This document shows, piece after piece, positions 22,624 to 63,071 of a stretch of 64,000 bases of DNA. Under the pieces are notes generated by a model. The model was not told the origin of the DNA. It ran no database searches and was given only the letters and a program-made list of their open reading frames with translations. Made by a program: the position numbers and the translations under genes. This DNA is from Rhizobiaceae bacterium (GTDB lineage Bacteria > Pseudomonadota > Alphaproteobacteria > Rhizobiales > Rhizobiaceae), in assembly GCA_029233925.1 (NCBI GenBank), contig JARGOX010000006.1, forward strand, positions 62,001 to 126,000. The letters run 5' to 3'. Each line of letters opens with the position of its first letter. Within the stretch, counting starts at the first letter, position 1.

Positions 22624-22702
22624 GTACGGATCGAGCCTCATGCAAATCTTCATTGGATGCAGTGTGACGTTTCGATTTTGGATATCAAAGGGAGGAACCC
22701 AG

Positions 22703-23719: not shown

Positions 23720-23725
23720 TGCAGT

Positions 23726-23753: not shown

Positions 23754-23782
23754 TATGAAATCATGCGAAGGCGGGGCGTGAG

Positions 23783-24823: not shown

Positions 24824-25788
24824 GCAGGCGCTTTTGGGAGACAGACTGGTTCGGGCCACTCATGGTCATTGTTGTGGCTGTCGCCGTCGTCAGCGCACTG
24901 AACCCATCGTTTCTGTCACCATTCAATATCCAGGTCCTGCTGCTGGCCATCGCCGTCAATGCGATGATCGCATTTTCCCAGATGATCATCATCGCCATTG
25001 GCCAGATGAATCTCTCGGTCGGCGCCATCGGCGGGCTTTCTGCCATTGCCTTTGCGGGCATGATGGAAGTCTGGGGCATACCCTGGCCAATCGCGGCCAT
25101 TCTGGCGCTGGCCCTGGGCGTACTCGCTGGCGTTGCCAATGGCGTTCTCGTGGCACTGACCGGCATCTCGGCCTTTGTCATCACGCTGGCCAGCCTGTCG
25201 GTTTACAAAGGCGTCAATCTGGGAATCACCGAGGCACAGCCTTTCTACAAGATACCGGATGTCGTGAAGGGGCTTGGCAATGACACATTTTTCCATCCCC
25301 TGCCCTGGCTGATCATTCCCTGTGTTCTGGCGGCCTTGCTCTTGTGGTATCTGCTCAACAGACTGCCACTTGGACGCTCCATTCTTGCCGTGGGCGGAAA
25401 CGAGCACGCCGCCGAACTGTCCGGCATTTCCGTGCGCCGGGTGGTGATTGTCGCCCACGCCATCTCCGGGCTTCTGGCGGCATCAGCGGGCATCATGCTG
25501 GTGGGCCGGTTGCAATTGGGTCAGCCGACGATTGGCGATGACTGGCTGATCCTGTCATTTGCGGCACCGGTTATCGGCGGTGCAATCCTGTCCGGTGGGC
25601 ATGTCAGCGTGGCAGGTACCTTGCTTGGTGTTGCCATTGTCGCCATTTTTACACAGGTGCTTGTCCTGTTCAACATCGATCCGTTTCTTGTTCAGGTGGT
25701 GCTGGGCGTGCTTATCCTGTGGGCGGTCGGGGTCAATCGTTTCCGCGAGGTCCGTGCCTTGAAGCATAGCGCGCAGGTGGCGTCATGA
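24820..25788 (+). CDS. Sugar ABC transporter permease (RbsC/AraH class), second subunit
   Basis: A 322-residue permease of the same family as its neighbour, with IIIAIGQMNLSVGAIGGLSA, ISAFVITLASLSVYKGVNLG and LGRSILAVGGNEHAAELSGI in matching places. It overlaps the following ATPase gene by 4 bases. The pair is probably a heterodimer. The sequence is clean, with about nine membrane segments. Confidence 0.9.
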   Translation: MSRRFWETDWFGPLMVIVVAVAVVSALNPSFLSPFNIQVLLLAIAVNAMIAFSQMIIIAIGQMNLSVGAIGGLSAIAFAGMMEVWGIPWPIAAILALALGVLAGVANGVLVALTGISAFVITLASLSVYKGVNLGITEAQPFYKIPDVVKGLGNDTFFHPLPWLIIPCVLAALLLWYLLNRLPLGRSILAVGGNEHAAELSGISVRRVVIVAHAISGLLAASAGIMLVGRLQLGQPTIGDDWLILSFAAPVIGGAILSGGHVSVAGTLLGVAIVAIFTQVLVLFNIDPFLVQVVLGVLILWAVGVNRFREVRALKHSAQVAS

Positions 25789-27332
25789 GCATCCAGAATT
25801 CCCCATCAGAAACGGACGTGTTTATTGCCGAGGGCATGATCAAGACCTTTCCCGGCGTCACCGCACTGGAGGACGTGAGGCTTTCCCTTTCCAAGGGATC
25901 GATCCACGCATTGCTGGGTGAAAACGGCGCAGGAAAGTCAACACTCATCAAAGCCATCACCGGCGTTCATCGTCTGGATTCCGGCCGCATGATGCTGAAC
26001 GGACAGCTGTTTGAGCCCTCCGATACGCGCGACGCCATCAGTCGGGGCATTGGCGTGGTGCATCAGGAACGCAATCTCATTCCGCGGTTTTCCATCGGCG
26101 AGAATATTTTCCTCGAAAGCCTGAATGCCCATCCGCTGCGACGCATCGATTACAACAAACTCTTTCGTGACGCCCGCGTCTGGCTGGAAATGCTGGGCGT
26201 TGATGCCGACCCGGCAATGCCGGTCCATCGCCTGAGTGTGGCAAAGACCCAATTGGTGGAGATCGCCAAGGCCCTGTCTTTGAATTCGCGCATTCTGTTG
26301 CTCGACGAGCCGACGGCAGCGCTCACACCGCACGAAACAGACACATTGTTCAAGATTTTGCGTCAGCTGCGCGATGATGGTGTCAGTCTGATGTTTGTCA
26401 GCCACAAGCTGGAGGAAGTGCAGGAAATCTGCGATCGGGTAACCGTTCTGCGTGATGGGAAAAACGCCTGTGAAAGCCAACCGCTGAAAGGCCTCGACAG
26501 GCAGGCCATCGTGCGCCTGATGATCGGTCGCAATGAACAGATTCCAGACTGGTCGGCGCGTGACCGTTCCACGGGCACGGCCGTGCTGCAATTGACGAAT
26601 GTCTCCACCTCGCTGGGTCACAAGGAGATCGACCTGAGCGTTCACAAGGGAGAGATAGTCGGTCTTTACGGACTTGTCGGCGCAGGACGCAGCGAATTGG
26701 CCAAATCAATTCTCGGCAAGTTTCAGGTGACCGGCGGCGAAGTTCTGGTCAACGGCAGCCGTGCGCAAATCCACAGCGTTGCCGACGCCGTACGGCAGTA
26801 CCGGATCGGTTATGTCAGCGAGGACCGCAAGAGCGAGGGCCTTGTGCTGATGCATTCGGTTCTGGAAAATGTCGGCATGCCCATATGGCGCCGACTGGCA
26901 GGCCTGGCGCATTTTCTGACCAATGGCAAAATTCGCAAACACACCGAACCCTATATCCGCAAACTGGAAGTGCGCACGCCGTCGCTGGACCAGCATGTCG
27001 GCAATCTGTCGGGTGGAAACCAGCAGAAGGTCAGCGTTGCCAAATGGCTGGCTGCCCAGGTGCAGATCCTGATTATCGATGAACCCTCCGTCGGCATCGA
27101 CATCAAGACCAAAGCCTATCTGCATGAACTGATCCGCGAATTATCGGACAATGGAACGGCATTGCTGCTGATCACCAGCGACATGCCGGAAATGATCACA
27201 CTGGCAGACCATATCGTGGTCATGAACGACTATCAAATCATGGGTGAAATCGACAACACCCGCGACTACGACACGATGAGTGAACGCATCATGACCCTGA
27301 TTCAGGGTGAGGAGCCGGCCGCCGCAGAATAG
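25785..27332 (+). CDS. Sugar ABC transporter ATP-binding protein (double ATPase, RbsA/MglA class)
   Basis: A 515-residue tandem ABC ATPase. Domain 1 (about 12-250) has Walker A GENGAGKST, a degenerate signature LSVAKTQLVEIA and Walker B ILLLDEPTAAL. Domain 2 (about 260-505) has the variant P-loop GLVGAGRSE, signature LSGGNQQKV and ILIIDEPSVGID. It completes the importer begun at 22703. No kinase follows, so the sugar is presumably handled unphosphorylated, in line with the oxidative enzymes nearby. Confidence 0.92.
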   Translation: MSIQNSPSETDVFIAEGMIKTFPGVTALEDVRLSLSKGSIHALLGENGAGKSTLIKAITGVHRLDSGRMMLNGQLFEPSDTRDAISRGIGVVHQERNLIPRFSIGENIFLESLNAHPLRRIDYNKLFRDARVWLEMLGVDADPAMPVHRLSVAKTQLVEIAKALSLNSRILLLDEPTAALTPHETDTLFKILRQLRDDGVSLMFVSHKLEEVQEICDRVTVLRDGKNACESQPLKGLDRQAIVRLMIGRNEQIPDWSARDRSTGTAVLQLTNVSTSLGHKEIDLSVHKGEIVGLYGLVGAGRSELAKSILGKFQVTGGEVLVNGSRAQIHSVADAVRQYRIGYVSEDRKSEGLVLMHSVLENVGMPIWRRLAGLAHFLTNGKIRKHTEPYIRKLEVRTPSLDQHVGNLSGGNQQKVSVAKWLAAQVQILIIDEPSVGIDIKTKAYLHELIRELSDNGTALLLITSDMPEMITLADHIVVMNDYQIMGEIDNTRDYDTMSERIMTLIQGEEPAAAE

Positions 27333-47831: not shown

Positions 47832-48198
47832 ATATGGGGCAGATCACCCCCGACACCTGTTCAAACGGCACAGATAAACAAGGATCATTCACAGGGTAAT
47901 TGGGGATTGCGCTTAAGTTGAGACAATCGTGTCAGATGATCTTTCTCCATAATGTTGCCGCCACACACGCAAAAGCAATATTCCGCGTGAAGGGCAGGAT
48001 CGATCTAAATGAGATGGCAATTGCGCAGAAGTGGCAAATCGGTCACCACCGTGCCTGAACCGTCAGACTGGAGTAGTCTCGTCTGTCCAAATATTTTTTG
48101 CGTAAATGTAAAAACAGAACCACCCTCACCTCAAAAATGTATCCAGCAAATCATTTATGTTAGAGATAGAAAAATTTCATTCCAATATTTGGGTCATC
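47832..48198. other. Intergenic region of about 365 bases, no gene seen
   Basis: Divergent leader region between the FecR-domain gene and the GT8 gene, relatively AT-rich in its second half (48080-48190). No ribosome-binding frame of note, no repeat and no terminator are evident. Confidence 0.5.
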
Positions 48199-49068
48199 AT
48201 GTCCGAAATAGTCGTTGCGATTGACAACAATGTCGTTGCCCCTCTGTGTGTTTTGCTTAATTCACTGCGCATTCAAAACCCGCACTCAGCATTCAAAATA
48301 CACGTTTTGCAAAGCGACTTATCTGCCCATAACCGCCAGACGCTGCTCGACCACGCAGCAAATCTCAAATTACCGATGAGCATGATCAATGTTGACGCCG
48401 AACCACTGGTTCATGTTTTCGGTCAAATGAATTCCGGTCATGTTTCTCATGTCTCGCTGTTTCGCTGCATGATCGGCAGCCTGCTTGATGAAACGATCAC
48501 AAAGGTGTTGTATCTGGACATTGATACGCTCGTTCTGGGCTCGATTGAGCCGATTTTCAACATCGACCTTGGAGGAAATATTAGCGCTGTCGTTCGTGAA
48601 GAACAGACATATCTGGCCGAGTTCGGCGTGAATCCGCAGGACTATTTCAATGCCGGCGTCATGCTCATCGACCTGAAAAAATGGCGATCTGAAAATGTCG
48701 AAGCCAGACTCATGGAAATCCTGAATACATATCCTGAAAAGCTGCAATGGTGGGACCAGAGCGCTTTGAACATTGCACTGAAGGGCAAAACACTTTCGAT
48801 GAGCAGACGATACAACTACATCGAAAGCCGACCCAAGACAGGTGAGAAAATCATCGTTCCCACTATCTTGCATTTCGCCGGTTCGTGCAAACCCTGGATC
48901 GAGCCTGATTTCCACGCCTGGGGAGCGGCCTATTGCAACGCCAGCATCGACACGCCTTGGACTGTCGAGTATCGGGCGCGAGGTCGCGCCGATGCTGCCG
49001 CCTACCGAAACAAAAACTGGTTCCACCGAAGTCTCGTCAGGTTGGGACGCAAACTATCCAGGATATAA
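48199..49068 (+). CDS. Glycosyltransferase family 8 protein
   Basis: A 289-residue GT8 enzyme. MSEIVVAIDNNVVAPLCVLLNS is the usual first strand, and the DxD metal motif is in VLYLDIDTLVLGSIEPIF. FNAGVMLIDLKKWR and WWDQSALNIALKGK are the other family blocks, and ILHFAGSCKPWIEP gives the C-terminal motif (HFxGxxKPW). GT8 proteins move galactose or glucose from a nucleotide sugar, often onto lipopolysaccharide. I start at the ATG at 48199 because it begins the conserved strand; 48157 is an alternative. It has no other envelope-sugar genes nearby. Confidence 0.88.
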   Translation: MSEIVVAIDNNVVAPLCVLLNSLRIQNPHSAFKIHVLQSDLSAHNRQTLLDHAANLKLPMSMINVDAEPLVHVFGQMNSGHVSHVSLFRCMIGSLLDETITKVLYLDIDTLVLGSIEPIFNIDLGGNISAVVREEQTYLAEFGVNPQDYFNAGVMLIDLKKWRSENVEARLMEILNTYPEKLQWWDQSALNIALKGKTLSMSRRYNYIESRPKTGEKIIVPTILHFAGSCKPWIEPDFHAWGAAYCNASIDTPWTVEYRARGRADAAAYRNKNWFHRSLVRLGRKLSRI

Positions 49069-49093: not shown

Positions 49094-51562
49094 CTATCCT
49101 TTCAGCCAGGTGATGCTCGGTTTCGCCAATGAGGTCTCAATTCCGCCATGGACGATTTTGCGTTGGCGCGTAACGTGCAGCTTTTTGGTCTTTCCCGGCA
49201 GCAGGGTAAAACTATTGTCGGACAGAATGTCCGCACCTCCATGGTTGATCGTAACAAAAAGCGCCGGCCTGTCGCTGTTCAGCGACAAAATTTCAACACC
49301 GTCATCATCTCTGGTCACATTGAATTCTATTTCCGGCTCCACAATATCATAGGCTTTGAACCGTTTTGGGAAATAGTCATTCTCACCCTGCAAGGTGCCC
49401 GAGTCCTGACGCCAGTCCAGATGCAGAAAGGATTGCTCTCCAAGGCAGTCCGCCGAAATGCGTCCTATTTCCACAGCGCGATCCGCCGGAATATCGCTCC
49501 TGAATGTGCCAGCTGACGCCATAGTGCCATCAAACGACACCTGTGTTGCCTCAATTGTCATGGATATGCCCTCCGGCAGGTCACAAATACCCCACAGCAC
49601 TATGTCGCCAGTTTCGTCATCGGGCTGAGCAGTGACCAGAACAGGCTGGTAGAACTTCCGCGCCAGATAGTGAACCACTTTCCAGCCGCCGCCATATTCA
49701 AGGCTTGACCAACTGGCGACCGGCCAGGTGTCATTGAGTTGCCAGTAGAGCGTTCCCATGGTGCGCGGCTTGTTTGACCGCCAGAACTCGATGGCTGTCT
49801 TCATTGCAAGGGCTTGCGATATCTGGCTTAGGAAAACCATGTCTTCAAAACCGTCGGGAAATCGGAAATAACGGCTGATGGTCTCAACAATCCGGCTGTT
49901 TCCACCGATGTTTCGCTGATGAACATCCATGATGGGAGAGGAAACGTTGCGGTCGCGTTCCTCGGTAAAACTTTCAATCGCGGGCATCGACGGAAAGGAC
50001 TGAAAACCGAATTCAGAACAGAATCTTGGACGCACAGTGCGAAAATGTTCAAAATCCTTTGACTCGTGCCAGACATCCCAGAAGTGCATATCGCCCGATG
50101 TATCATCATGCCAGCCATCGCTGAAATCGAGCCTGCCGACTGAAGGAGAAGACGGCCAGAAGGCTATATCCGGCCCCTCATCGGCCACGGCTTCTTCCAG
50201 CGCGTGGTTCAACCTGTCGTAATTGGCGAGATAGCGATCACGATTGGCTTTTGTCTCCGGAAACCATGACAGGGCACCAACCAGTTCATTGTCACCGCAC
50301 CACAGTGCCATACAGGCCTGCCGCGACAGCCTGCGTATCTGCTGGCGCGCCTCTTTGCGCACCATGTTGAGCCAGCTCCGGTCGGAAGCGGGATAATGGT
50401 TGCAGGCAAACATGAAATCCTGCCAGATCAGGATGCCCATCTGGGAACACATGTCATAGAACCAGTCGGCCTCATACTGGCCACCACCCCACACACGCAG
50501 CATGTTCATATGCGCGTCCAGCGCCGATTGCAGCAGGTCACGCGTCACCGCCGGCGTTGCGCGTGCAGGCAATGCGTCGGCGGGAATCCAATTGGCCCCT
50601 TTCGTGAATATCGTGCGACCATTGACCGAAAAGGCAAACTGCGCGCCGATGTCATCGGGTGCCGTCAAGAGCGCGATATGGCGCAATCCGATGCGGTGAT
50701 GGACACTTTCCTGGTCGACGCGAACAACGAGATCGTAAAGCGGCTGCCCGCCCTGCCCGGCCGGCCACCACAGCCGCGGATTGTCAATCGTCACAGACAA
50801 TTCAATCTGATTTTCGCCTGGCAGGATACGCACGGTCTTGCCGATCGCCTGATCATCAAGTTCGAGCGCCACATCAGCCTGCGCTAGGTCTAAACCCGTC
50901 GCATAAATCGTCACATCCACACGCACGGCACCGTTTGCATGATGCTGCACGATCTTCGCATCATCCAGCCGACATATCCGGCTATGACGCAGAACGATGT
51001 CTCCATAGACGCCAAGCGGCATCAGGGCGATATTCCAATCCCATCCGGCATGGCATTCCGCCTTGCGGAGAAAATTATTGTAGGCAATCCTGCAGTTCTG
51101 GGCCAGATAAGGCAATTCGAACGGAAAGGCGTCATGGGCTTCCACCGCCTTGGCACTGTTTGAAAGAAAACGAATTTCCAGCCTGTTCTCACCCTTTTTC
51201 AGCGCGTCGGTGATATCCACATCGTAACGGAGAAACTGGTTTTCGGTTTCTGCAATCGCCTGGCCGTTCAATGAAATCTGCGTAAAACAATCGATTGATG
51301 TGAGTGTCAACGTCCATCGACCGGGGCCCATGGCAGGCAGATCAAATGTCTTGGCCGCAACCCATTGCGCCTCGTGAACCCAGTCCAGTGATGTTTCATT
51401 GTCGCGATAATAGGGATCGGGAATGCGCCCAGCCTTTAACAAGGCGGAATGAATGTCGTTCGGAAAGTCGGTGACCAGACATATGTCTCTGGCTTCATTG
51501 CGGATCGTCCATCCACAATTCAGATTCACCGTGTCCGCAGCATCTCCGGCACCAACCCGCAT
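49094..51562 (-). CDS. Beta-mannosidase-like glycoside hydrolase family 2 enzyme
   Basis: An 822-residue GH2 protein. The N-terminal jelly-roll (residues 1-170), immunoglobulin-like domain and TIM barrel are followed by further beta domains. Conserved motifs are NMLRVWGGGQYEADWFYDMC, the acid/base Glu in WCGDNELVGALSW (near residue 425) and the nucleophile Glu in RFCSEFGFQSFPS (near 518). There is no signal peptide, so it is probably cytoplasmic and works on imported mannosides. It is convergent with GT8 and divergent from the alpha/beta hydrolase. Confidence 0.87.
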   Translation of the reverse strand: MRVGAGDAADTVNLNCGWTIRNEARDICLVTDFPNDIHSALLKAGRIPDPYYRDNETSLDWVHEAQWVAAKTFDLPAMGPGRWTLTLTSIDCFTQISLNGQAIAETENQFLRYDVDITDALKKGENRLEIRFLSNSAKAVEAHDAFPFELPYLAQNCRIAYNNFLRKAECHAGWDWNIALMPLGVYGDIVLRHSRICRLDDAKIVQHHANGAVRVDVTIYATGLDLAQADVALELDDQAIGKTVRILPGENQIELSVTIDNPRLWWPAGQGGQPLYDLVVRVDQESVHHRIGLRHIALLTAPDDIGAQFAFSVNGRTIFTKGANWIPADALPARATPAVTRDLLQSALDAHMNMLRVWGGGQYEADWFYDMCSQMGILIWQDFMFACNHYPASDRSWLNMVRKEARQQIRRLSRQACMALWCGDNELVGALSWFPETKANRDRYLANYDRLNHALEEAVADEGPDIAFWPSSPSVGRLDFSDGWHDDTSGDMHFWDVWHESKDFEHFRTVRPRFCSEFGFQSFPSMPAIESFTEERDRNVSSPIMDVHQRNIGGNSRIVETISRYFRFPDGFEDMVFLSQISQALAMKTAIEFWRSNKPRTMGTLYWQLNDTWPVASWSSLEYGGGWKVVHYLARKFYQPVLVTAQPDDETGDIVLWGICDLPEGISMTIEATQVSFDGTMASAGTFRSDIPADRAVEIGRISADCLGEQSFLHLDWRQDSGTLQGENDYFPKRFKAYDIVEPEIEFNVTRDDDGVEILSLNSDRPALFVTINHGGADILSDNSFTLLPGKTKKLHVTRQRKIVHGGIETSLAKPSITWLKG

Positions 51563-52883: not shown

Positions 52884-53180
52884 TTGCTGTCAGGACACGT
52901 TGAAAACGGCGCTGCGGAAACGGAAGCTATCTTGAAAGCCTTGCATGACGAGTTGAAGCAGATCAAAGAAGACGGGTACAGAATTTCCAAGAGCGGTCAG
53001 TTGGTTGGCGTGACAGATATTTCTGTCGCCGTAACAGGCGATGACGGAAATGCATTCAGCGTTTTGACATGTCCCTACATGGAAAGAATACAAGACAATG
53101 AAGCCGCAACAGATCATGGCGACATTTTCAGCGTCAAAGACAAATTGTTGCAACTCGCGGAAAAATTATCGATGAGCTGA
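52884..53180 (+). CDS. Small hypothetical protein
   Basis: A 98-residue protein with an amphipathic N-terminal helix (ETEAILKALHDELKQIKEDG), a beta region (GVTDISVAVTGDDGNAFSVLTC) and a C-terminal helix. The start is TTG, supported by CAGGAGAGAA just upstream. The same frame is open for about 75 more bases upstream with plausible helix (SGKTLLAFLDDQLRREL) but lacks a start codon. I do not recognise the family. Confidence 0.5.
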   Translation: MLSGHVENGAAETEAILKALHDELKQIKEDGYRISKSGQLVGVTDISVAVTGDDGNAFSVLTCPYMERIQDNEAATDHGDIFSVKDKLLQLAEKLSMS

Positions 53181-53382: not shown

Positions 53383-53430
53383 TTGACATAATCGGCGATT
53401 CTCTATTTGTTCGGTAACTGGACGAACTAA
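53383..53430 (+). promoter_or_regulatory. Promoter and inverted-repeat operator of the ROK operon
   Basis: TTGACA at 53383-53388 lies 17 bases before a weak TTTGTT (53406-53411). TTTGTTCG (53406-53413) and CGAACTAA (53423-53430) form an inverted repeat with a 9-base centre, of the TTNGTTCG...CGAACNAA type seen for alphaproteobacterial ROK regulators. It lies directly before the ROK gene, which suggests autoregulation of the operon. Confidence 0.6.
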
Positions 53431-53435
53431 AAGGA

Positions 53436-54656
53436 ATGAGCGTGGCAGACCCAACCAACATATCGCGGCGGATGACCCTGAGTTCGGTCGTACAGGCAAT
53501 CACAAGCTATGGCCCGATCTCCCGCGCCAGCGTCGCGAAGATGACCGGGCTCTCCAAGCAAACCGTCTCGGAAATCGTTTCGTCACTAGAAAACGACGGC
53601 TGGGTTCAGACTGTCGGCCGGACGGAGGGAAATGTCGGCAGACGCGCCGTTGTCTACGAAATCGTACCCGATGCGGCTTTGGTGGCAAGCGTGGACCTCG
53701 GAGGCACCAAGGTCAGGGTCGCCCTTTGCAATCTTTCAGGCGCTGTCGTTGCAGAAATCACCGAACCCACCACCCAGGGTGGCGGTGCGGCAGTTGTCGA
53801 CCAGATCGGAAAGATCATCATCGATGCCGCAACACGGCACGGGATCGGCTCCGAGAAGATTCGCGTGGCTGTTGTCGGCGTGCCCGGCGTTCTCGATTCC
53901 CGGACCGGTCACATCAATCTGGCTCCCAATATCAACGGAATTGACAGCATCGATTTCCCTGCCCTCCTGCAGGCACGTCTTGGAATTGAAGTTCTTGTCG
54001 AAAACGACGTCAATCTGGCCGCCTTAGGTGAGCACTGGATGACCCACCGTGGCGACAAGGACGATCTGGTGTTCCTGTCGATCGGCACGGGAATCGGCGC
54101 CGGCATTGTTATTGGCGGACAATTGGTGCGCGGATCGACCGGTGGCGCCGGTGAAATAGGCTATCTGCCGTTCGGCGCCGACCCCTATGAAGAGGAAAGC
54201 CTTACGGTCGGCGCTCTGGAGCGCGTGGCAGCAACCAGCGCGATCATACATCACTACCTGGAACTGACCGGTAAACGCAGGAGCGTCCCGGAGATCTTCG
54301 AAGCCTTGGTTACCGGCGACACAGAAGCCACCCAGGTGCTTCAGGAGGCTGCCGGCTATATCGCGCGCGCCATTGCCGCGATTGCCGCTGTGGTCGATCC
54401 GGCCTGCGTCGTCATCGGTGGTTCGATCGGTGCGCGCGAAGAGCTCATCAAAATGATCGAACCGGAAATCAATCGATGTTTCCCAAGACCCATCCCTGTC
54501 GAGGTGTCTGTTCTTGGCAATCATGCGGCCCTGGTCGGCGGTGCATCGATTGCCTTGTCCCGACTGCACATAGCGCTGTTTTCCGGCGGCCTGCCGGGCG
54601 CTCAAATTGTCGTGCCGCCACCATTGCTTGAAAACTACCAGGAGAATGTGGCGTGA
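53436..54656 (+). CDS. ROK family transcriptional regulator
   Basis: A 406-residue ROK repressor. An N-terminal winged helix (about 10-75, with ISRASVAKMTGLSKQTVSEIV) is followed by the sugar-kinase-like fold: VDLGGTKVRVALCNLSG, GVPGVLDSRTG, LVENDVNLAALGE and VFLSIGTGIGAGIVIGG. The usual Cys-rich zinc motif of ROK proteins (GxCxCGxxGCxE) is not visible; the region reads GEIGYLPFGADPYEEESL. A GTG at 53442 with AAAGGA 6 bases upstream may be the true start. It overlaps the M20 gene by 4 bases and heads the operon that it probably represses in the absence of the sugar-like inducer. Confidence 0.9.
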   Translation: MSVADPTNISRRMTLSSVVQAITSYGPISRASVAKMTGLSKQTVSEIVSSLENDGWVQTVGRTEGNVGRRAVVYEIVPDAALVASVDLGGTKVRVALCNLSGAVVAEITEPTTQGGGAAVVDQIGKIIIDAATRHGIGSEKIRVAVVGVPGVLDSRTGHINLAPNINGIDSIDFPALLQARLGIEVLVENDVNLAALGEHWMTHRGDKDDLVFLSIGTGIGAGIVIGGQLVRGSTGGAGEIGYLPFGADPYEEESLTVGALERVAATSAIIHHYLELTGKRRSVPEIFEALVTGDTEATQVLQEAAGYIARAIAAIAAVVDPACVVIGGSIGAREELIKMIEPEINRCFPRPIPVEVSVLGNHAALVGGASIALSRLHIALFSGGLPGAQIVVPPPLLENYQENVA

Positions 54657-55936
54657 GATCCGCTTCCATCACAACCAGACTCGCAGCCTGTCAGGAAAAA
54701 CAGGCCGATATAGACTTGCTGCGTCAGGCGATCGGCTGTGACAGTGTCACCGGAAATGAGGCCGGCTTTGCCGATTTCCTGAAATCAACAATGACGCAAA
54801 TGCAATTGGACACCGGTTCAGGCGACTTTCTGCCCGGTCGTCCAAATACCTGGGGTACCAGAAAGGGTTCGGGCAAAGGCCAAAACCTCATCTTCGTCGG
54901 CCATACGGATACGGTTCATGTTCGTGGCTGGTCGGATCATTGGAAAGGCCGCGTGCAGCAGGACCCCTTCTCAGCGCCGATAATCGATGGAGAGATCTGG
55001 GGACGTGGCGCCTGCGATCTGAAGGGCGGAATTTGCGCAGCCCTTGGTGCCCTGCGCCTGCTGGATAAGGCAGGTGTGCAATTGCAAGGTGACATTTCCT
55101 TCGCCTTCATCGGAGACGAGGAAAGCGGCGAGCCCGGAACGGGTGTCAGTGCCGGCGCCAAGGATCTGGTAAAACGGATAAAGAGCGGCCAGATCGCCAA
55201 ACCCGATTTCGCCATCTATGTCGAGCCGACCAAACTGGATGTCTACACGGCACAGATCGGTTTTTTTATTGCCGACATCACCATCACCGGCAAATCTGCC
55301 TATTTTGGAACGCCTGAAGATGGCGTTGATGCGCTCAAGGCAACCCATGCTGTCCTTTCGGCAATCTGGCGCCATGCAGAGGTTCTTTCACAAGGGCCGA
55401 AACATACCTTTCTAGGCGCGTCAGACCTCCTTGTGACCAAGATCAATGGCGGCGGATATATTGCCGTTCCCGGTGAATGCAGCCTGTCGCTTATTCGCAA
55501 GCTTCGCCCCGGTGAAGACCTGAACGAAGCCGTTGCCCAGTTTGAGGCGGCCGTGAACAGCGCAACGCTGGAAGACGGCATCGCGGTAAAGATCGCCTAT
55601 CCTGCCGGACGCGATCATGAATTTGGTGGGTCACCGGTTGAGATCGACCCAAACCACGCCGCCGCCCGTGCCCTTTCTGCATGCGTGAAAGATGCCTGCG
55701 GTGATCGCGGCACAATCGGCGGTGCGCCCTACTGGTCCGAAAATCCGTTCATCGTCAACGAAATCGGTTGCGCTGCCGTCTATTGCGCTCCCGGCGATAT
55801 CAGCGTTGCCCACACTTTCGAAGAACGCATCAACGTTGAAGAATATCTGGCGGCCATTCGCGCCTTCGCTCTTTTCATCATGCAGTACTGCGGAACCAAG
55901 TCTGAAACCGAAATTTCAACAGGAGAAATGCAATGA
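54653..55936 (+). CDS. M20 family metallo-amidohydrolase/peptidase (ArgE/DapE class)
   Basis: A 427-residue zinc enzyme. Zinc ligands and catalytic residues fit the family: VGHTDTVH (His near 84, Asp near 86), GRGACDLKGG (Asp near 121), IGDEESGEPGTG (Glu pair near 155), VEPT (near 188) and the late HTFEERINVEEYL (His). The lid/dimerisation domain lies between about 200 and 310. The start is GTG with CAGGAGAA 5-7 bases upstream. Such enzymes split amide bonds of N-acyl amino acids or dipeptides. Here it may deacylate an N-acylated or amidated substrate brought in by the ABC importer. Confidence 0.88.
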   Translation: MRSASITTRLAACQEKQADIDLLRQAIGCDSVTGNEAGFADFLKSTMTQMQLDTGSGDFLPGRPNTWGTRKGSGKGQNLIFVGHTDTVHVRGWSDHWKGRVQQDPFSAPIIDGEIWGRGACDLKGGICAALGALRLLDKAGVQLQGDISFAFIGDEESGEPGTGVSAGAKDLVKRIKSGQIAKPDFAIYVEPTKLDVYTAQIGFFIADITITGKSAYFGTPEDGVDALKATHAVLSAIWRHAEVLSQGPKHTFLGASDLLVTKINGGGYIAVPGECSLSLIRKLRPGEDLNEAVAQFEAAVNSATLEDGIAVKIAYPAGRDHEFGGSPVEIDPNHAAARALSACVKDACGDRGTIGGAPYWSENPFIVNEIGCAAVYCAPGDISVAHTFEERINVEEYLAAIRAFALFIMQYCGTKSETEISTGEMQ

Positions 55937-56985
55937 AACAGTTGATAAGACATATTCTATCAGGAGCAGCACTGGCGCTCGCGACCCTTCCGGTCAGCGC
56001 TCAAACGGTAGGCCCCCAGGGTGAAACCGCCACACTATCCTCGGCAATCGTTGTTGCTGACGAAAACATCGAAGCGGTTCGCGCAGGCGGCCACACGGCG
56101 GCCCTTCTGTGGCACGACCAATCGGATTTTGTAAACGCGGTTACTGCCGGTGCTACGGATGAATTCACCCGTTTCGGCATTGAAGTGGTCGCTACCACAA
56201 GTGCCGGATTTGATGCTGCAAAACAACGCAGCGACATCGAAACAGCACTTGTGAAAAAGCCAAGTATCATCCTTTCACTGCCCCTGGATCCGGTCACGTC
56301 GGCCGCTGCATTCGAGGAAGCAAAGGCTGAAGGCGTCAAGCTGGTTTTCCTTTCAAATCTGCCGTCCGGATACAAGCACCCGGACGACTATGCGGCCATT
56401 GTCACCGATGATCTGTTCCAGATGGGCAAGCAGGCAGCGGATGCGCTTGCGGCAGCCATGGGTGGCAAGGGCACGGTTGGCTGGGTCTTTCATGACGCCG
56501 CCTATTATGTGACCAACCAGCGCGACAACGCGTTCAAAACGACGATTGAGAACGATTACCCGGACATTTCGATTGTCGCCGAACAGGGCATCAGCGATCC
56601 CGCTCGCGCCGAAGACATTGCAAATGCGATGCTTCTGAGGAACCCCGATCTGGGCGGCATCTACGTGACCTGGGCCGGCCCGGCAGAAGGCGTCCTGGCG
56701 GCGCTGCGTGCCAACGGCAACAAAACGACCAAAATCGTCACGTTGGACCTGTCCGAACCGATTGCACTGGATATGGTGCGCGGCGGGAATGTTGCCGCGA
56801 TCGTGGCCGACGAAGCCTATGAGCTTGGCCGGGCGATGGCAGCGGCGGCCATTCTTGATCTTCTCGACCAGGACGTTCCGCCCTTCGTCGTTGCCCCTGC
56901 CGTCACTGTGACTGCGGACAATGTTGCCGAAGGCTGGATGCAATCGCTGCACATCGAAGCGCCCAAAAGCCTGAGCGCCCAATAG
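55933..56985 (+). CDS. Sugar-type ABC transporter substrate-binding protein
   Basis: A 350-residue periplasmic binding protein of the ribose-binding (CUT2) fold. The signal peptide (MKQLIRHILSGAALALATLPVSA) is followed by a region with AALLWHDQSDFVNAVTAGATDEF; landmarks are PSIILSLPLDPVTSAAAFEEA and LRNPDLGGIYVTWAGPAEGVL. It starts 4 bases before the M20 stop (ATGA). A 13-bp hairpin follows the gene. It is the receptor for the permease and ATPase encoded further down the operon. Confidence 0.87.
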   Translation: MKQLIRHILSGAALALATLPVSAQTVGPQGETATLSSAIVVADENIEAVRAGGHTAALLWHDQSDFVNAVTAGATDEFTRFGIEVVATTSAGFDAAKQRSDIETALVKKPSIILSLPLDPVTSAAAFEEAKAEGVKLVFLSNLPSGYKHPDDYAAIVTDDLFQMGKQAADALAAAMGGKGTVGWVFHDAAYYVTNQRDNAFKTTIENDYPDISIVAEQGISDPARAEDIANAMLLRNPDLGGIYVTWAGPAEGVLAALRANGNKTTKIVTLDLSEPIALDMVRGGNVAAIVADEAYELGRAMAAAAILDLLDQDVPPFVVAPAVTVTADNVAEGWMQSLHIEAPKSLSAQ

Positions 56986-56998
56986 CAGCCACACGAAA

Positions 56999-57032
56999 TG
57001 GTCCGACGGGAAACCATCCTCCCGTCGGACCA
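56999..57032 (+). other. Hairpin after the binding-protein gene
   Basis: TGGTCCGACGGGA (56999-57011) pairs perfectly with TCCCGTCGGACCA (57020-57032) over an 8-base loop. No T-run follows. It is the third such hairpin after a receptor gene in this window. Confidence 0.75.
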
Positions 57033-57140
57033 ACGCCGCCTCAACTCACAGGCGGAATGCAGCGCAACACCGTTTGATCACAGCGACAGAGGACCTCTCC
57101 ATGTGTCCGCAAACCGCAACCTGGCTCCTGAAAGATTGAC

Positions 57141-58094
57141 ATGAACAGCGTAAAAACACGACTGTCCGGCCTCGATTTCCAACAATTGGTTGTCTATATA
57201 GGCTTCCTTGCAATTTTCCTTTTCTTTGCCTTGACCCTTCAGGATGATGGCTTTCTTACGCAGCGCAATCTGACGAACATCATCCTGCAGACTGCCCCGG
57301 CAACGATCATGGCAATTGGTCTTGTTTTCGCCCTCTCTGCCGGCGAGATCGACTTGAGTTTTGGCTCTATCGTCGCCGTCTCCGCACTGTCTGCAGCCGT
57401 GGTCATGCAGGAACACTCCATGGCCTTTGGCATTTTTGCAGGCTTGGGCGCCGGCGTGATGATTGGCGCATTCAACGGCCTACTGGTTGCCTATTTCAAA
57501 CTGCCATCGTTTCTGGTCACATTGGCCACCATGGGTCTGTTTGCCGGCATTGCACGCTCGATGACCAATCTGCGCTCGATACCCGTCCTCAATGAGACCT
57601 TTACCGGCATCTTCGGGTCCGGAAAACTTTTCTCTGTGCCCTCCCTGGTCATCTGGACGATCATCGGCGTAGCGATAGGGCATCTGGTCTATCGCCATAC
57701 GAAATTCGGCGCGCATGTTCTTGCAACCGGTGACAATCCGCGCGCCGCGCAGGTGTCTGGCATCAAGGTGCCGAGAATTCGCTTCTACGTTCTGACCATA
57801 TGCGGTGCCTGTGCAGGCCTCGCCGGCCTGCTCTATGCTGGCAGGCTGCAGGCCGCCAGATATACGCTCGGCGAAAGCGATCTGATGACGGTCATTGCCG
57901 CGGTGATTGTCGGCGGCACGGCCCTCAAAGGCGGCAAGGGCTCGGTTTTCGGCGCACTGATCGGCTCTTTGATGATGGGAATGCTGAACAACGGATTGAT
58001 CCTGATGAACCTGAGGGTCTCTGACCAGATGATTGTCAGGGGATTGATCATTCTGCTTGCCGTCGCGGTCTCTCTTCGCGACAAAAACCGATAG
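57141..58094 (+). CDS. Sugar ABC transporter permease (RbsC class)
   Basis: A 317-residue permease with about nine hydrophobic helices and CUT2 landmarks: VFALSAGEIDLSFGSIVAVSA, LPSFLVTLATMGLFAGIARS, FGAHVLATGDNPRAAQVSGI and GGTALKGGKGSVFGALIG. It is the only permease of the operon, so the channel is probably a homodimer. The start follows a weak ribosome site (GAAAG). Confidence 0.9.
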   Translation: MNSVKTRLSGLDFQQLVVYIGFLAIFLFFALTLQDDGFLTQRNLTNIILQTAPATIMAIGLVFALSAGEIDLSFGSIVAVSALSAAVVMQEHSMAFGIFAGLGAGVMIGAFNGLLVAYFKLPSFLVTLATMGLFAGIARSMTNLRSIPVLNETFTGIFGSGKLFSVPSLVIWTIIGVAIGHLVYRHTKFGAHVLATGDNPRAAQVSGIKVPRIRFYVLTICGACAGLAGLLYAGRLQAARYTLGESDLMTVIAAVIVGGTALKGGKGSVFGALIGSLMMGMLNNGLILMNLRVSDQMIVRGLIILLAVAVSLRDKNR

Positions 58095-58108
58095 GAAGGG
58101 CCTGAAAA

Positions 58109-59320
58109 ATGTTCCTGGATGTATTGATACGCAGAAACCCGCAGTTTATCGAAGCTGCAATGGCGCTGCACCAGAATGGTGAGATACCACCCAATTCCTA
58201 TGTTCTGGATCTCGACACCGTTGAAAAAAATGCCGGATATTTCTCCGCCATGGCTGAAAGCCTTGGTCTGAAGACCTTCGCCATGACGAAACAGGTTGGT
58301 CGCCATTCGGGTTTTTGTCAGGCCGTCATGCGCGGCGGCATTGATCGCTCCGTCGCGGTCGATATGGACTGTGCGGTTGCCTGTCATCGCGCCGGTTTGA
58401 AAACCGGACATCTTGGCCATCTGGTACAGGTGCCACGCGGCGATGCGCAATTCGCAGCGGCCCAGTTGCAGCCCGATTACTGGACCGTATTCAGCGACGA
58501 TAAAGCCAGGGAGGCAGCACAGGCCGCCCAGAAGGCAGGTCGCGTACAAAAACTGCTGGCCAGAATTCAGACCGAAGGTGATACATTCTACCGGGGGCAC
58601 GAAGGCGGCTTTGCGGCAAAAGACATATGCGCCGTCGCCGATCAACTGGATGCGCTGGACGGCAGCGAATTCAGCGGGATCACCACCTTCCCCGCCCTGC
58701 TGTTCGATCTGCAAAGCCGCGCGGTCAAGCCGACACCCAATCTTGAAACCCTGGCGCGTGCTTCAGAGGCATTGGCCGCGGCCGGACGCTACAACATCGA
58801 GGTCAATGCCCCCGGCACAAATTCGGCAGTCGTGTTGAAAGCTTTGGCCGAGGCGGGCGCCACCCAATGCGAGCCTGGCAACGCCTTGCACGGAACGACG
58901 CCTTTGCATGCCCTTGAGGACCTGCCGGAGGAACCCGCTGTTCTTTATCTCAGTGAAGTGTCCCACCACCATGGTGGCAATGCCTTTTGCTTCGGCGGCG
59001 GCCTCTATATCGATCCGGTCTTTCCAAAATACGATGTACAGGCAATTGTCTCAAAGGAACCCACCCGCTCTCGCGACTGCCTGGCCAGCGTCGAAATTCC
59101 GGATTATTCAGCCATTGACTATTACGGCATGATCGATGCCACGGGAGCGGTCAAACCCAAGGCCGGCGACACCGTTATTTTCGGTTTTCGAGGTCAGGCA
59201 TTCGTCACCCGCGCCAATGTGGTTGGCATCTCCGGCATTTCGACTGGAACGCCGCGCGTCGGGTCCATCGAAAACGCGTTCGGTCAGCCCATTGGCTGGC
59301 CAGAAAGAGCCCTGTCATGA
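58109..59320 (+). CDS. YhfX-like fold-type III PLP-dependent enzyme (putative amino acid racemase)
   Basis: A 403-residue protein resembling E. coli YhfX and alanine-racemase-fold enzymes. The PLP Lys is probably K61 in FAMTKQVGRHSGF. Other landmarks are SYVLDLDTVEKNAGYF, GGIDRSVAVDMDCAVACHRAG, EVNAPGTNSAVVLKALAEAG and SHHHGGNAFCFGGGLYIDP. Family members are predicted racemases or epimerases; none to my knowledge has a firm reaction. Its location inside a sugar-type importer operon, between permease and ATPase genes, is unusual. It probably acts on the amino-acid or amino-sugar part of the substrate. Confidence 0.8.
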   Translation: MFLDVLIRRNPQFIEAAMALHQNGEIPPNSYVLDLDTVEKNAGYFSAMAESLGLKTFAMTKQVGRHSGFCQAVMRGGIDRSVAVDMDCAVACHRAGLKTGHLGHLVQVPRGDAQFAAAQLQPDYWTVFSDDKAREAAQAAQKAGRVQKLLARIQTEGDTFYRGHEGGFAAKDICAVADQLDALDGSEFSGITTFPALLFDLQSRAVKPTPNLETLARASEALAAAGRYNIEVNAPGTNSAVVLKALAEAGATQCEPGNALHGTTPLHALEDLPEEPAVLYLSEVSHHHGGNAFCFGGGLYIDPVFPKYDVQAIVSKEPTRSRDCLASVEIPDYSAIDYYGMIDATGAVKPKAGDTVIFGFRGQAFVTRANVVGISGISTGTPRVGSIENAFGQPIGWPERALS

Positions 59321-60057
59321 CACCCGGAACGAATGTCCTGTCGTTGAAAAATATCCACAAAGCCTTTGGTGGGGTTGTCGCCATTCAGGATTTCTCACTG
59401 GATCTGCAAGCCGGTGAAATCGTCGCCCTGGTCGGGGACAATGGCGCTGGAAAATCAACCCTGATCAAGATCGTTTCCGGCGTCTATACGCCGACATCCG
59501 GTGAAATTCGTCTGGATGGCGAAGCCGCAACCTTCAGCGACGCAAGCTCGGCGCGCAGCAATGGCATCGAGGTTGTTTATCAGGACCTTGCCCTCGCCGA
59601 CCAACAGCCCGTTTACATGAACATGTTCCTCGGGCGCGAACTGACCAAGCCACCCTTCGGACTTTTGGACAAGGCACGCATGCGCCGCGAGGCGCAGGGA
59701 CTGGTTGACGAACTGGACGTGCGCATTCCCTCCGCCGCCTCGACAATCAGCGATCTGAGCGGCGGGCAGCGCCAGGGCATCGCCATTGCCCGTGCAACCC
59801 ATTGGGCCAGCAAGCTGATCCTGCTCGACGAACCGACCGCCGCGCTGGGTGTTGCGGAAACTGCCAGGGTCGAGGAACAGATCATAAATCTGAAGCAGAA
59901 GAACCTCGCGATCCTGATCATCAGCCACAGTCTGGATCAGGTGTTCCGCCTGTCAGACAGAATCTGCGTACTGCGGCGTGGCGAGCAAATCGGCATCAGG
60001 GAAACCGCCAGCACCGATAAAAACGAGATCGTCTCAATGATCACCGGAGTATCCTGA
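59317..60057 (+). CDS. Sugar ABC transporter ATP-binding protein (single-domain)
   Basis: A 246-residue ABC ATPase with Walker A GDNGAGKST (near 44), signature LSGGQRQGIAIARAT, Walker B LILLDEPTAALG and switch His in IISHSLD. CUT2 importers normally have a fused double ATPase of about 500 residues; this one has a single domain, so it must work as a homodimer. Its start overlaps the YhfX stop by 4 bases. Confidence 0.9.
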   Translation: MTPGTNVLSLKNIHKAFGGVVAIQDFSLDLQAGEIVALVGDNGAGKSTLIKIVSGVYTPTSGEIRLDGEAATFSDASSARSNGIEVVYQDLALADQQPVYMNMFLGRELTKPPFGLLDKARMRREAQGLVDELDVRIPSAASTISDLSGGQRQGIAIARATHWASKLILLDEPTAALGVAETARVEEQIINLKQKNLAILIISHSLDQVFRLSDRICVLRRGEQIGIRETASTDKNEIVSMITGVS

Positions 60058-60058
60058 T

Positions 60059-61096
60059 ATGGGCAAGACAGACGTCGAGACGGTGATGTTCCGGGAAATC
60101 AACGAAATACCCGATGTCCTCACCCGCCAGGTCAATGAAGCGCTGCATGCCTATCTGGAGGCTGGCCGACAGGCCGCAGCCACCAGTCCACGCGGCTTTG
60201 TCACCAGCGCCCGGGGCACCTCGGACCACGCAGCGATGTTTTTCAAATACGTCATGGAGCTGCACACCGGCCTGCCCGTTGCATCCATCGGCCCCTCCGT
60301 TGCATCCGTCTACAAAACGCCATTGAAACTGGACGACTTTATCTGCGTGACGATCTCCCAGTCCGGCGGCAGTCCAGATCTTGCGGCTTTGCAGCAGGCT
60401 GCCGGCAAGGGAGGCGCACAAACGCTGGCCTTCCTCAATGAGACCAACAGTCCGGTGGGCGAAGGCGCTGCATCGGTGCTGCCTGTGCTGGCGGGAGAGG
60501 AAAAAGCGGTGGCGGCAACCAAGTCCTTTGTCAGCACATTGTTTGCCATTTTGAGTTTTGCTGCCGGATTTACCGGCGACGAAAAGCTTGAGACTGCTCT
60601 GCGGGAATTCCCCGCGACAGCACGCGCTGCGCTTGGCAGCGACTGGTCAAAGGCAGCTTTGCCGTTGGCACGGGCTGGCTCTGTGTTCACCGTCGGGCGC
60701 GGCCCCGGGCTGGCGGTCGCGGCTGAAGCTGCGCTCAAGCTGAAAGAAACCTGCCGCATCCACGCCGAAGTGTTTTCAGCAGCTGAGGTTCTGCATGGCC
60801 CTGTGGTTCTGGCCGAGAAAAAATTTGCAGCGCTGCTGTTCGACCCTGGCGATGCCGCACAGGAATCTGTGGCCACTGCGGCACGTCTGATCAATGAGAG
60901 CGGCGCGACAAGCCTGTGGATTTCTACCCGGGAAGGCGTGGAAAACACGTTGCTGGTTCCGGCCGCATCCCACATTCTTTTGCAGCCGCTTACCCAGATC
61001 ATGGGATTCTACAAATTTGTGGAGGCCCTTTCCCGAAATCTGGGTGAAAACGCCGACGCGCCAATTGGCCTGAACAAGGTGACCGTGACCGTGTAA
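60059..61096 (+). CDS. SIS domain aminosugar-phosphate isomerase/deaminase (GlmS isomerase-domain/NagB-II-like)
   Basis: A 345-residue protein with two SIS domains. Landmarks are FREINEIPDVLTRQ at the N-terminus, FVTSARGTSDHAAMFFKYVME, ISQSGGSPDLAAL, AATKSFVSTL and the second domain with GRGPGLAVAAEAALKLKET (about residues 220-240) and CRIHAEVFSAAEVLHGP. It resembles the C-terminal half of GlmS without the glutaminase, as in the NagB-II deaminases (glucosamine-6-phosphate to fructose-6-phosphate plus ammonia) and in AgaS/FrlB. The exact substrate is unknown. It is the last gene of the operon, 1 base after the ATPase stop. Confidence 0.85.
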   Translation: MGKTDVETVMFREINEIPDVLTRQVNEALHAYLEAGRQAAATSPRGFVTSARGTSDHAAMFFKYVMELHTGLPVASIGPSVASVYKTPLKLDDFICVTISQSGGSPDLAALQQAAGKGGAQTLAFLNETNSPVGEGAASVLPVLAGEEKAVAATKSFVSTLFAILSFAAGFTGDEKLETALREFPATARAALGSDWSKAALPLARAGSVFTVGRGPGLAVAAEAALKLKETCRIHAEVFSAAEVLHGPVVLAEKKFAALLFDPGDAAQESVATAARLINESGATSLWISTREGVENTLLVPAASHILLQPLTQIMGFYKFVEALSRNLGENADAPIGLNKVTVTV

Positions 61097-61235: not shown

Positions 61236-61982
61236 ATGGACAGCACAGCACAATCAATCATCATAACCGGTGCAGGATCGGGGATCGGGCGCGCCTGCGC
61301 GCAATTGTTTCTGGAAAAAGGCTATAAAGTCGGGCTGATTGGCCGACGCGCTGCATTGCTTGAGGATGTGGCCAAAGGCCATTCCAACGCCCTGCCCCTT
61401 GCCTGTGACATCACCGATGCGGATCAGGTTGCCAAAGCCTTCGAGACGGCCAGGTCCACCTGGGGCCGCATTGATATCCTGTTCAACAATGCCGGCATGA
61501 GCAAACCATCGCGCACGATTGACGAGACACCGGTTGAAGACTGGCTGGAAGTAGTCCAGGTCAATCTGACCGGCTCCTTTTTGTGCGCGCGCGCGGCATT
61601 TGCCATCATGCGGGCCCAGTCACCGCAGGGCGGGCGCATTATCAACAATGGCTCGGTTTCGGCCTATACGCCAAGGCCCGGATCGATTCCCTATACAGCC
61701 ACAAAACACGCGATCACCGGATTGACCAAGACTTTGTCGCTGGATGGCAGACCTTTCAATATCGCCTGCGGTCAGATCGATATCGGCAATGCGCTGACGG
61801 AAATGGCAAAACCCATGACCGTCGGCGTTCCCCAGGCCGATGGTTCCGTCAAGGCCGAAGCAACCATGGATGTCGCCCATGTCGCCACATCCCTGCTGCA
61901 TATGGCAGAATTGCCGCTTGAGGCCAATGTCCAGTTCATGACCGTCATGGCAACAAAAATGCCCTATGTCGGACGGGGATAG
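61236..61982 (+). CDS. SDR family oxidoreductase
   Basis: A 248-residue short-chain dehydrogenase: IITGAGSGIGRACAQLF, NNAGMS, Ser in INNGSVSAYTPR and catalytic YTATK. It resembles the group close to 3-oxoacyl-ACP reductases and sorbitol-type dehydrogenases. It is 139 bases after the SIS gene, with its own TTGACT near 61168-61173 and possible promoter, and shares GTTCGGTAA (61203-61211) with the ROK operator region. That may be chance. It ends convergently with the LysR gene, 9 bases away. Confidence 0.83.
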   Translation: MDSTAQSIIITGAGSGIGRACAQLFLEKGYKVGLIGRRAALLEDVAKGHSNALPLACDITDADQVAKAFETARSTWGRIDILFNNAGMSKPSRTIDETPVEDWLEVVQVNLTGSFLCARAAFAIMRAQSPQGGRIINNGSVSAYTPRPGSIPYTATKHAITGLTKTLSLDGRPFNIACGQIDIGNALTEMAKPMTVGVPQADGSVKAEATMDVAHVATSLLHMAELPLEANVQFMTVMATKMPYVGRG

Positions 61983-61991
61983 AGTCAATCA

Positions 61992-62897
61992 TCAGGTGTC
62001 GAAATTCAAGGTTTTGAACAGTTTTTCGACAACGCCCAGAAACAGGCGCTTGACCGGATCAATGGAACTGGATGCGGAGACGAAAAGGCCGATCTTGTAC
62101 TCGCTCAGCGCCTTCTGGGACAATTTGACGAATTTCAGTTCACCGCGCTCGATTTCACTCATGAAACCGATTTTTGTATAGATGCCCATGACCTGATTGG
62201 ACAGGATTCCCTGTTTGGCAACAATCAGTGAATTGGTGAACAGATGCGTCGGCAGATGCACCGCAATGGAGGCCATTTCCTGATCGAGAATGGAGTTGCC
62301 CGCACGCGCCTCGATGGTTCGCACCAGAGGGTATCCGCCAATATCGTCGATCGTCAGACTGGTGCGCTCGGCCAGGGGATGATCGGGGCGCATGATCAAT
62401 CCGAAGGGCGTGGCCTTTTCTGCAAAAATGCGCACATCCGGATGGGAATCATTGGTAAAACTGATGCCTATGTCCGTCACGCCCGAGGCGACCGACTGTA
62501 TGATCTCGTCGGGTTGTGCCGTGGTCACCGAAAGCGTGATGCCCGGATATTTGTCACTGAACTGGCCCAGCACTTCCGGCAATATGCCAAACGTCACGGA
62601 ATCGAGCGTCTGGATGTTCAGGTGCCCGGTCCGAAGATCGCGGATGTCGTCGATGATCGTCTTGATCCGATCGAAATCATAAAGCGTCTTGCGACAGTGC
62701 TCCAGCACGATCTTGCCCGCCGGTGTGATCTCCACACCCTCGGGTGAACGTTCGAACAAACGCACCCCCAGCATCTCTTCGATATTGATGATTTTGCGGT
62801 TGACCGACGTGGACGAAACCTTCAGCAGATTGGCCGCTTTGCGGATCGAACCCTGGCGTGCAACTTCATCGAGATAGCGCAGAAACACCGTATGCAT
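61992..62897 (-). CDS. LysR family transcriptional regulator
   Basis: A 301-residue LysR regulator. The N-terminal helix-turn-helix is in FLRYLDEVARQGSIRKAANLL and LKVSSTSVNRKI (residues 4-37). The C-terminal effector domain (about 90-295) has the periplasmic-binding-like fold. I start at the ATG at 62897 (MHTVFLRYL), which has GGAGG 5 bases upstream. It is divergent from the transport gene at 63072 and may control it. The coinducer is unknown. Confidence 0.88.
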   Translation of the reverse strand: MHTVFLRYLDEVARQGSIRKAANLLKVSSTSVNRKIINIEEMLGVRLFERSPEGVEITPAGKIVLEHCRKTLYDFDRIKTIIDDIRDLRTGHLNIQTLDSVTFGILPEVLGQFSDKYPGITLSVTTAQPDEIIQSVASGVTDIGISFTNDSHPDVRIFAEKATPFGLIMRPDHPLAERTSLTIDDIGGYPLVRTIEARAGNSILDQEMASIAVHLPTHLFTNSLIVAKQGILSNQVMGIYTKIGFMSEIERGELKFVKLSQKALSEYKIGLFVSASSSIDPVKRLFLGVVEKLFKTLNFDT

Positions 62898-63071
62898 TGC
62901 ATCCTCCAGAGGGCGGTGCTTTTTTCGCACCACTGTTGGCTAAAATCGGCTCTTCATGCCTCACCCAAAAGTCTTTATAAGTCAAGTGGGCGAAAGAAGA
63001 GCAAACCAATGCTGCTTCCGCAAAGGCGGGGGCCTTCCGATTATGAACCACGCCCACAACCGGAGAACACA

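Follow-up and report, generated by a model that had tools for sequence, protein, structure and literature searches.

A recurrent ROK-M20-CUT2-YhfX operon in alphaproteobacteria, tentatively assigned to the uptake and catabolism of an amide-protected amino compound

Introduction

YhfX is an orphan protein with a solved Escherichia coli structure and a C-terminal domain family in Pfam, and it is encoded within the E. coli-type yhf operon (YhfZ, U, T, the PTE-like V, S, X and W). Here we analyse seven genes that place a YhfX-like enzyme in a different setting, found in a 64,000-nucleotide stretch from a Rhizobiaceae bacterium (GenBank assembly GCA_029233925.1, contig JARGOX010000006.1, positions 62,001 to 126,000 of the forward strand; this whole stretch is hereafter the window, and positions are counted from its first letter). 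In order, all on the plus strand, they encode a ROK protein, an M20 enzyme, a periplasmic receptor, a permease, the YhfX-like pyridoxal phosphate (PLP) enzyme, an ATPase and a SIS protein. What this run shares with the yhf operon is YhfX, at about 33-40% identity. The other yhf genes are absent from the seven, which have instead the ROK, M20, CUT2 importer and SIS genes; YhfS, YhfT, YhfU, the PTE-like protein and YhfW were not found among the six other genes or the flanking genes, all of which belong to other families.

Other described systems overlap with different parts of the operon. N-acetylglucosamine catabolism (NagA, NagB, NagK and a NagC-type regulator) has a ROK regulator and a NagB-type deaminase, the latter optional here; by contrast the seven genes include neither NagA nor a dedicated kinase (genomes were not searched for NagA) and add the M20 enzyme, YhfX and a CUT2 importer. 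The frcRBCAK fructose operon of Sinorhizobium also pairs a ROK regulator with a CUT2 importer whose ATPase has a single domain, but lacks M20, YhfX and SIS genes. The frl and fra pathways are alike in their SIS enzyme and their permease and kinase logic, whereas the window SIS protein is NagB-II-like rather than deglycase-like and the M20 and PLP enzymes are additional. Literature searches turned up no described system with this gene combination, in agreement with the preliminary description of the window, which had called the combination unfamiliar; in the part of them that was checked for YhfX, no title or abstract named it. The portions consulted of PMC9007349 (NagX-based glucosamine use) and PMC12343721 (a predicted archaeal glucosaminate route) concern matters unrelated to the operon.

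We report the content, order and conservation of these genes, an operator-like palindrome before them and the alternative partners of YhfX elsewhere. Our preferred reading, held tentatively, is that the genes form an uncharacterised operon, controlled by a ROK regulator of its own, for taking up and degrading an amino compound protected by an amide, probably with deamination of hexosamine-6-phosphate as the last step.

Conservation and layout of the operon

A search of genome contigs with the YhfX protein as query returned 87 relatives; the loci analysed here are the best 80 of these (59-98% identical), and were thus picked by YhfX similarity. The six-gene core, consisting of the ROK, M20, receptor, permease, YhfX and ATPase genes, is complete and in the same order at 70 of the 80 loci, a recurrence that rules out chance as the origin of the arrangement. 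The preliminary description had suggested a possible catabolic system and proposed looking for the same gene order in other genomes; on that check the operon proves real and recurrent. Among the ten exceptions, seven are truncated where the contig stops (L025, L047, L071, L073, L084, L094 and L097). At L090 the ROK gene lies downstream on the opposite strand and an amino-acid permease gene is found in the surroundings of YhfX, while L035 is without ROK and M20 genes and has a transposase gene slightly upstream of its receptor gene. L091 is a genuine variant of the core, in which the importer is followed by a polysaccharide-deacetylase-like protein (a weak match, E 5e-4, under the cut-off), a PfkB kinase and YhfX.

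The closest record, L024, is a metagenome-assembled genome (MAG) from the Rhizobiaceae and is 96-100% identical across all seven proteins. The core also occurs in the laboratory strain Ruegeria sp. TM1040. Judged by record title, the 80 loci are mostly alphaproteobacterial, with outliers that include an Oceanospirillaceae MAG (L081) and an Anaerolineae MAG (L093). Counting the window genome each time, YhfX is present in 15 of 297 genomes of the window's order, and the domain PF21279 in 4 of 385 genomes of its class and 11 of 398 of its phylum; the permease gene adjoins YhfX in all 15 short loci from the order. The core block is infrequent across species and coherent wherever it is present.

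Within the window genome (6.1 Mb, 99.4% complete), gene coordinates bear out the claimed co-directional run of seven. The junctions measure, in gene order, -4, -4, +155, +14, -4 and +1 bases, so that three are 4-base overlaps and one a 1-base gap, the four tight junctions that had been noted. The start previously given for the operon, 53383, falls on a promoter-like TTGACA rather than on the start of a gene. Family calls come from Pfam and NCBIfam; among the NCBIfam matches listed, every score of the seven proteins is below its cut-off, and the YhfX protein has no NCBIfam match. As a single obligate unit the seven genes must be rejected: the six-gene core stands, whereas a SIS gene follows it at just 23 of the 80 loci and is optional.

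The YhfX-type enzyme and its other settings

The YhfX-type enzyme (58109-59320, plus strand) is a PLP enzyme of fold type III that matches the E. coli YhfX structure 4kbx (E 1.9e-75), deposited as 'Uncharacterized protein YhfX'. Its N-terminal barrel is that of alanine racemases (PF01168, E 4.6e-16), but the alanine racemase C-terminal domain is missing: that region is PF21279, YhfX-like_C (E 2.6e-26, 92.5 bits), and nothing else matches there at E 0.001. After 4kbx the nearest solved relatives share the fold type III PLP barrel and are aldolases, the YhfX profile matching D-threonine aldolase 4v15 at E 1.9e-6 and D-3-hydroxyaspartate aldolase 6qkb at E 1e-5, with alanine racemases behind at about E 0.1. 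The label of racemase given earlier is a guess, and the profile lies closer to these aldolases. The match stops near profile position 240, short of the C-terminal part of the aldolases, where the window protein differs in carrying PF21279. D-threonine aldolases have a metal-binding C-terminal domain; in the YhfX family the SEVSH stretch contains no invariant histidine.

Beyond the 80 loci, a search of 400 genomes from the phylum of L093 yielded 16 genomes with 18 YhfX places (one gene lying in two frames), all of which were inspected. L093 itself has the six-gene core. An M20 gene, 27-28% identical to that of the window, directly precedes YhfX at L174 and L178; an amino-acid permease gene does so at L135, L136 and L171, with a ROK gene adjoining in the last two; and at L180 a dimethylformamidase-like gene lies 30 bases upstream. 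At L134 a broken YhfX gene (8155-9476 of that locus, spread over two frames through sequencing error or decay) and a partial yhf-type set have a NagB-II-like SIS gene in their vicinity. The actinomycete Embleya (L105, reading frames taken from homology) has, in order, a ROK regulator, an amino-acid permease, YhfX, a ROK protein without helix-turn-helix, and SIS. Here the permease replaces importer and amidase, and the substrate of YhfX is therefore likely to be a free amine. A gene annotated as amidase within a Cetobacterium yhf set fits the same trend of amide hydrolases. Because YhfX adjoins amide hydrolases from different families, or else an amino-acid permease that replaces them, these gene neighbourhoods suggest that the enzyme takes a free primary amine that has often first been released from an amide.

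The M20 enzyme and the importer

The M20 protein (54653-55936, plus strand, GTG start) is a predicted metallo-amidohydrolase of the ArgE/DapE type in which the M20 fold is confirmed, with a Peptidase_M20 domain and a dimerisation domain; on TIGR01910 it scores 159.8 bits, under the cut-off of 217.6. Its relatives, in fold lists that hold re-ranked Foldseek matches only, are N-acyl amino acid hydrolases of the ArgE and DapE kind. The suggestion that this enzyme may cut an amide is consistent with these relatives and with the pairing of M20 and YhfX at the two Chloroflexota loci L174 and L178, whose M20 proteins are divergent.

The importer comprises a CUT2-type periplasmic receptor (55933-56985, plus strand; Peripla_BP_4), a permease (57141-58094, plus strand; BPD_transp_2, PF02653, E 3.9e-41) and an ATPase (59317-60057, plus strand; PF00005, E 3.8e-31). 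Receptor, permease and ABC ATPase families of a CUT2 system are thus all present, without the two ATPase domains per chain: the 246-aa protein has a single domain and aligns to the first half of CUT2 ATPase models of about 500 aa. By a crude count, about 34 of the 80 loci have more than one receptor gene. In the gap between receptor and permease genes lies a hairpin (56999-57032, not assigned to a strand) with 15 pairs in a pattern scan and 13 in the plus-strand RNA fold, the fold of 56980-57145 having a z-score of -3.82. Hairpins between such genes are common where the receptor is needed in excess, and this one is perhaps an mRNA stability element.

The slot of the probable deaminase

The seventh gene (60059-61096, plus strand) encodes an accessory SIS protein of NagB-II/GlmS type, a probable hexosamine-6-phosphate deaminase (PF01380, E 5.1e-24, in two stretches). 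It scores 264.8 bits on the NagB-II model NF046059, short of the cut-off of 430, and matches 8eol, deposited as a glucosamine-6-phosphate deaminase, at E 3.4e-56. Aligned with the GlmS-like protein of the same genome, it keeps the GlmS-type E, the K/E of LKLKE, the HGP and the C-terminal K, which we take to be residues of the GlmS isomerase site.

Across the 80 loci, the slot after the ATPase gene holds a SIS gene in 23 and a NagB-I gene in four, is too short to read in five (including L071) and holds neither in the rest, so that a deaminase of either kind is found at 27 of 75 readable loci. At L025 and L035 the SIS gene is spread over two frames, through sequencing error or decay. The NagB-I loci represent two lineages, one of mutually similar loci (L039, L041 and L050) and the other L081; they were sought with only the two NagB-I proteins first found. 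Both proteins tested pass the TIGR00502 cut-off of 236.9 (L081 with 285.2 bits, L041 with 263.7). That two unrelated families, both named after a single reaction, share one slot is our best evidence that the pathway makes hexosamine-6-phosphate. The end step proposed earlier thus stands in part: a step on an amino-sugar phosphate is likely, given the retained GlmS residues and the NagB-I replacements, but SIS, being optional, cannot define the pathway.

A survey of 49 genomes, namely the window genome plus the genomes behind 48 of the 80 loci (the L039 genome was left out), places deaminases elsewhere as well. Among the matches listed, 43 genomes show, beside a GlmS-like match at about 100-146 bits, a NagB-II-like one that scores 170 bits or more, and in none of the 49 is the NagB-II cut-off of 430 reached; some of these matches are poor (G1409 at 185.9 bits, G1412 at 198, G1435 partial, G1401 broken). 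The remaining six carry NagB-I, which passes the cut-off in five and scores 192.9 against 236.9 bits in G1443. Of the sampled genomes, 35 lack a deaminase gene in the operon, and every one of these has a NagB-II-like or NagB-I gene elsewhere. In the window genome NagB-II gives one further match, in a frame of GlmS size, and NagB-I gives none.

The ROK protein and an operator-like palindrome

The ROK protein (53436-54656, plus strand; PF00480, E 7e-52) has an N-terminal helix-turn-helix and is a predicted regulator, perhaps also a sugar kinase; its best NCBIfam score is to NagC (147.8 bits, cut-off 650). It contains DLGGTK, ENDVN and GTGIGAG and lacks CxCGxxGC. The first three correspond to the phosphate-1, catalytic Asp and phosphate-2 motifs of ROK kinases and CxCGxxGC to their zinc motif, with GExGH a further one. 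The three kinase-type patterns searched for are all kept in 68 of 72 ROK homologues. Of the three other ROK matches of the window genome, the motif check covered L182 and L184.

Before the ROK gene, the TTGACA at 53383-53388 (plus strand, read directly) probably serves the operon promoter as its -35 hexamer. A generic promoter scan did not include it among its calls; CTTGAC and TGTCAA rank among the commonest 6-mers near the start of the ROK gene across 69 loci. Downstream of it lies an operator-like palindrome, TTnGTTCG-N9-CGAACTAA (53403-53432, no strand assigned; exact match 53410-53430, core TTCG-N9-CGAA 53410-53426), for which the wider consensus across loci is TAATTAGTTCGGTAACAGAACGAACTAAT. 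In the interval that spans 200 bases upstream to 30 bases downstream of the ROK start, and across the same 69 loci, which include the window and L024, TTCG-N9-CGAA is present in 62, with a spacer of 5 or 13 in two more and no such site in five. With spacers of 4-14 allowed, TTCG/CGAA occurs in 64 of the 69 loci against 2.4 expected from mononucleotide shuffles, and GTTCG/CGAAC in 35 against 0.15, counts to be read with the loci in mind as relatives and thus not independent trials. A matrix scan of the window and the 80 loci (1.56 Mb) found the site at the ROK start 65 times; the only two further sites lie in contig-cut loci (L058 and L066) where no ROK start was usable. The window has one perfect match; with up to two mismatches the palindrome is not enriched there (3 matches against 3.1 expected, two being both strands of the same site). 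By its position downstream of TTGACA the palindrome would be a good place for a repressor to bind.

Discussion

In the pathway that we tentatively propose, the CUT2 importer would take up a small amino compound carrying an amide cap, the likeliest candidates being N-acylated hexosamines and their conjugates. The M20 enzyme would strip off the acyl part to leave a free amine. YhfX would form a PLP aldimine with the freed amine, and the molecule would be epimerised or rearranged. The amino sugar would be phosphorylated by the ROK protein or by a kinase encoded elsewhere, and SIS, NagB-I or a deaminase elsewhere would convert hexosamine-6-phosphate to a ketose phosphate and ammonia, with which the route probably ends. 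Until substrate or product binds, the ROK protein would repress the operon from the palindrome. We considered muramic acid, glucosaminate and glyco-serine as candidate substrates, which the present data do not separate. A bolder version, which we think quite unlikely, makes YhfX the first PLP enzyme to epimerise C2 of a free hexosamine (for example from mannosamine type to glucosamine) after deacylation by M20, with the ROK protein as both repressor and hexosamine kinase and SIS or NagB finishing; were it true, N-acyl hexosamines would gain a new entry to central metabolism that bypasses NagA and NanE.

Several observations weigh against the proposed hexosamine route. No PLP enzyme is known to act on a free hexosamine at its C2 amine. 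No deaminase gene lies next to the core in 48 of the 80 loci, and the deaminase genes found elsewhere, counted in genomes that carry these loci, are consistent with a need for one but weak support for it. Amino-acid permeases and M20 enzymes as neighbours of YhfX are no less suggestive of amino acids than of amino sugars. YhfX also occurs with the very different partners of the E. coli-type yhf operon; nine of the 18 YhfX places in the phylum of L093 are such sets (L137, L139-L143, L172, L175 and, in partial form, L134), and at L138/L179, L173 and the alphaproteobacterial L177 none of the partners described above was found among the neighbours scanned. As to phosphorylation, the earlier statement that no kinase is visible is perhaps too strong given how widely the three kinase patterns are kept, yet the zinc motif and GExGH are each found in none of the 72 ROK homologues, and the second ROK protein of Embleya keeps DIGGTK while the other two kinase patterns go unmatched; with some motifs kept and others absent, the ROK protein is an equivocal candidate for the missing kinase.

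YhfX acting as an aldolase or lyase on an amino acid is a strong rival to these proposals. An N-acyl or glyco-amino acid would be degraded, M20 freeing a beta-hydroxy or beta-O-substituted amino acid that YhfX cleaves in the manner of D-threonine aldolase or D-serine dehydratase, with any released amino sugar passing to SIS or NagB where present. The ranking of 4v15 and 6qkb ahead of alanine racemases, the N-acyl amino acid substrates of the M20 relatives and the amino-acid permeases beside YhfX all speak for it; against these stand the end of the aldolase match near position 240, the SEVSH stretch without an invariant histidine and the sugar-type importer, and as a whole we consider it rather unlikely. 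Less probable again is that no amino sugar is involved, the core scavenging an N-acyl (perhaps D-) amino acid or another amide while SIS and NagB are neighbours recruited for some other purpose. The 48 of 75 readable loci without SIS or NagB would fit such a core, as would some Chloroflexota loci, where YhfX is paired with a permease or M20 alone. It leaves unexplained, however, why one slot is used by two non-homologous deaminases of one reaction, and why SIS accompanies YhfX again in Embleya and, close to a partial yhf-type set, in L134.

Two known pathways fare worse. In an Amadori pathway like those for fructoselysine or fructose-asparagine, SIS would be a deglycase, and an APC permease, a PfkB kinase and SIS do occur in different relatives as they do in the frl operon. 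But the window SIS protein scores 19 bits on the fructoselysine-6-phosphate deglycase model NF008481 (cut-off 430) against 264.8 on NagB-II, it is replaced elsewhere by NagB-I, which is no deglycase, and the pathway has no step for M20 or YhfX; Amadori amines, moreover, are secondary. We regard this reading as very improbable, and slightly more so an ordinary N-acetylglucosamine operon variant with M20 in place of NagA, for which the NagB-type last step and the NagC-like score of the regulator can be cited but which leaves YhfX without a role, though the pairing of M20 and YhfX recurs without SIS.

For YhfX, the operon offers surroundings that are simple and conserved; they include a receptor and an amide hydrolase and point tentatively to an end product, so that the substrate should be findable by ligand screening. 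If the hexosamine reading is true, it would represent an overlooked nutrient route in many alphaproteobacteria, and the enteric yhf operon would gain a lead.

Flanking genes and the rest of the window

Neither gene downstream of SIS was accepted as part of the operon. The SDR gene (61236-61982) has a high-identity match only in the near-identical L024, and relatives of the LysR regulator (61992-62933, minus strand), 78-79% identical in L054 and L061, lie there upstream of the core beside another ABC ATPase. Just upstream of the operon, a 98-aa frame (52884-53180, plus strand) resembles the last part of an IclR-type regulator (PF01614, E 3.9e-4, below the cut-off) and is perhaps a remnant. Farther upstream are genes for a beta-mannosidase-like GH2 protein (49094-51562, minus strand) and, adjoining it, a family 8 glycosyltransferase (48157-49068, plus strand). 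The window also carries a second, ordinary-looking CUT2-like importer (22622-27332), with a Peripla_BP_4 receptor by Pfam and, by eye, two permease-like frames and one 515-aa ATPase-like frame.

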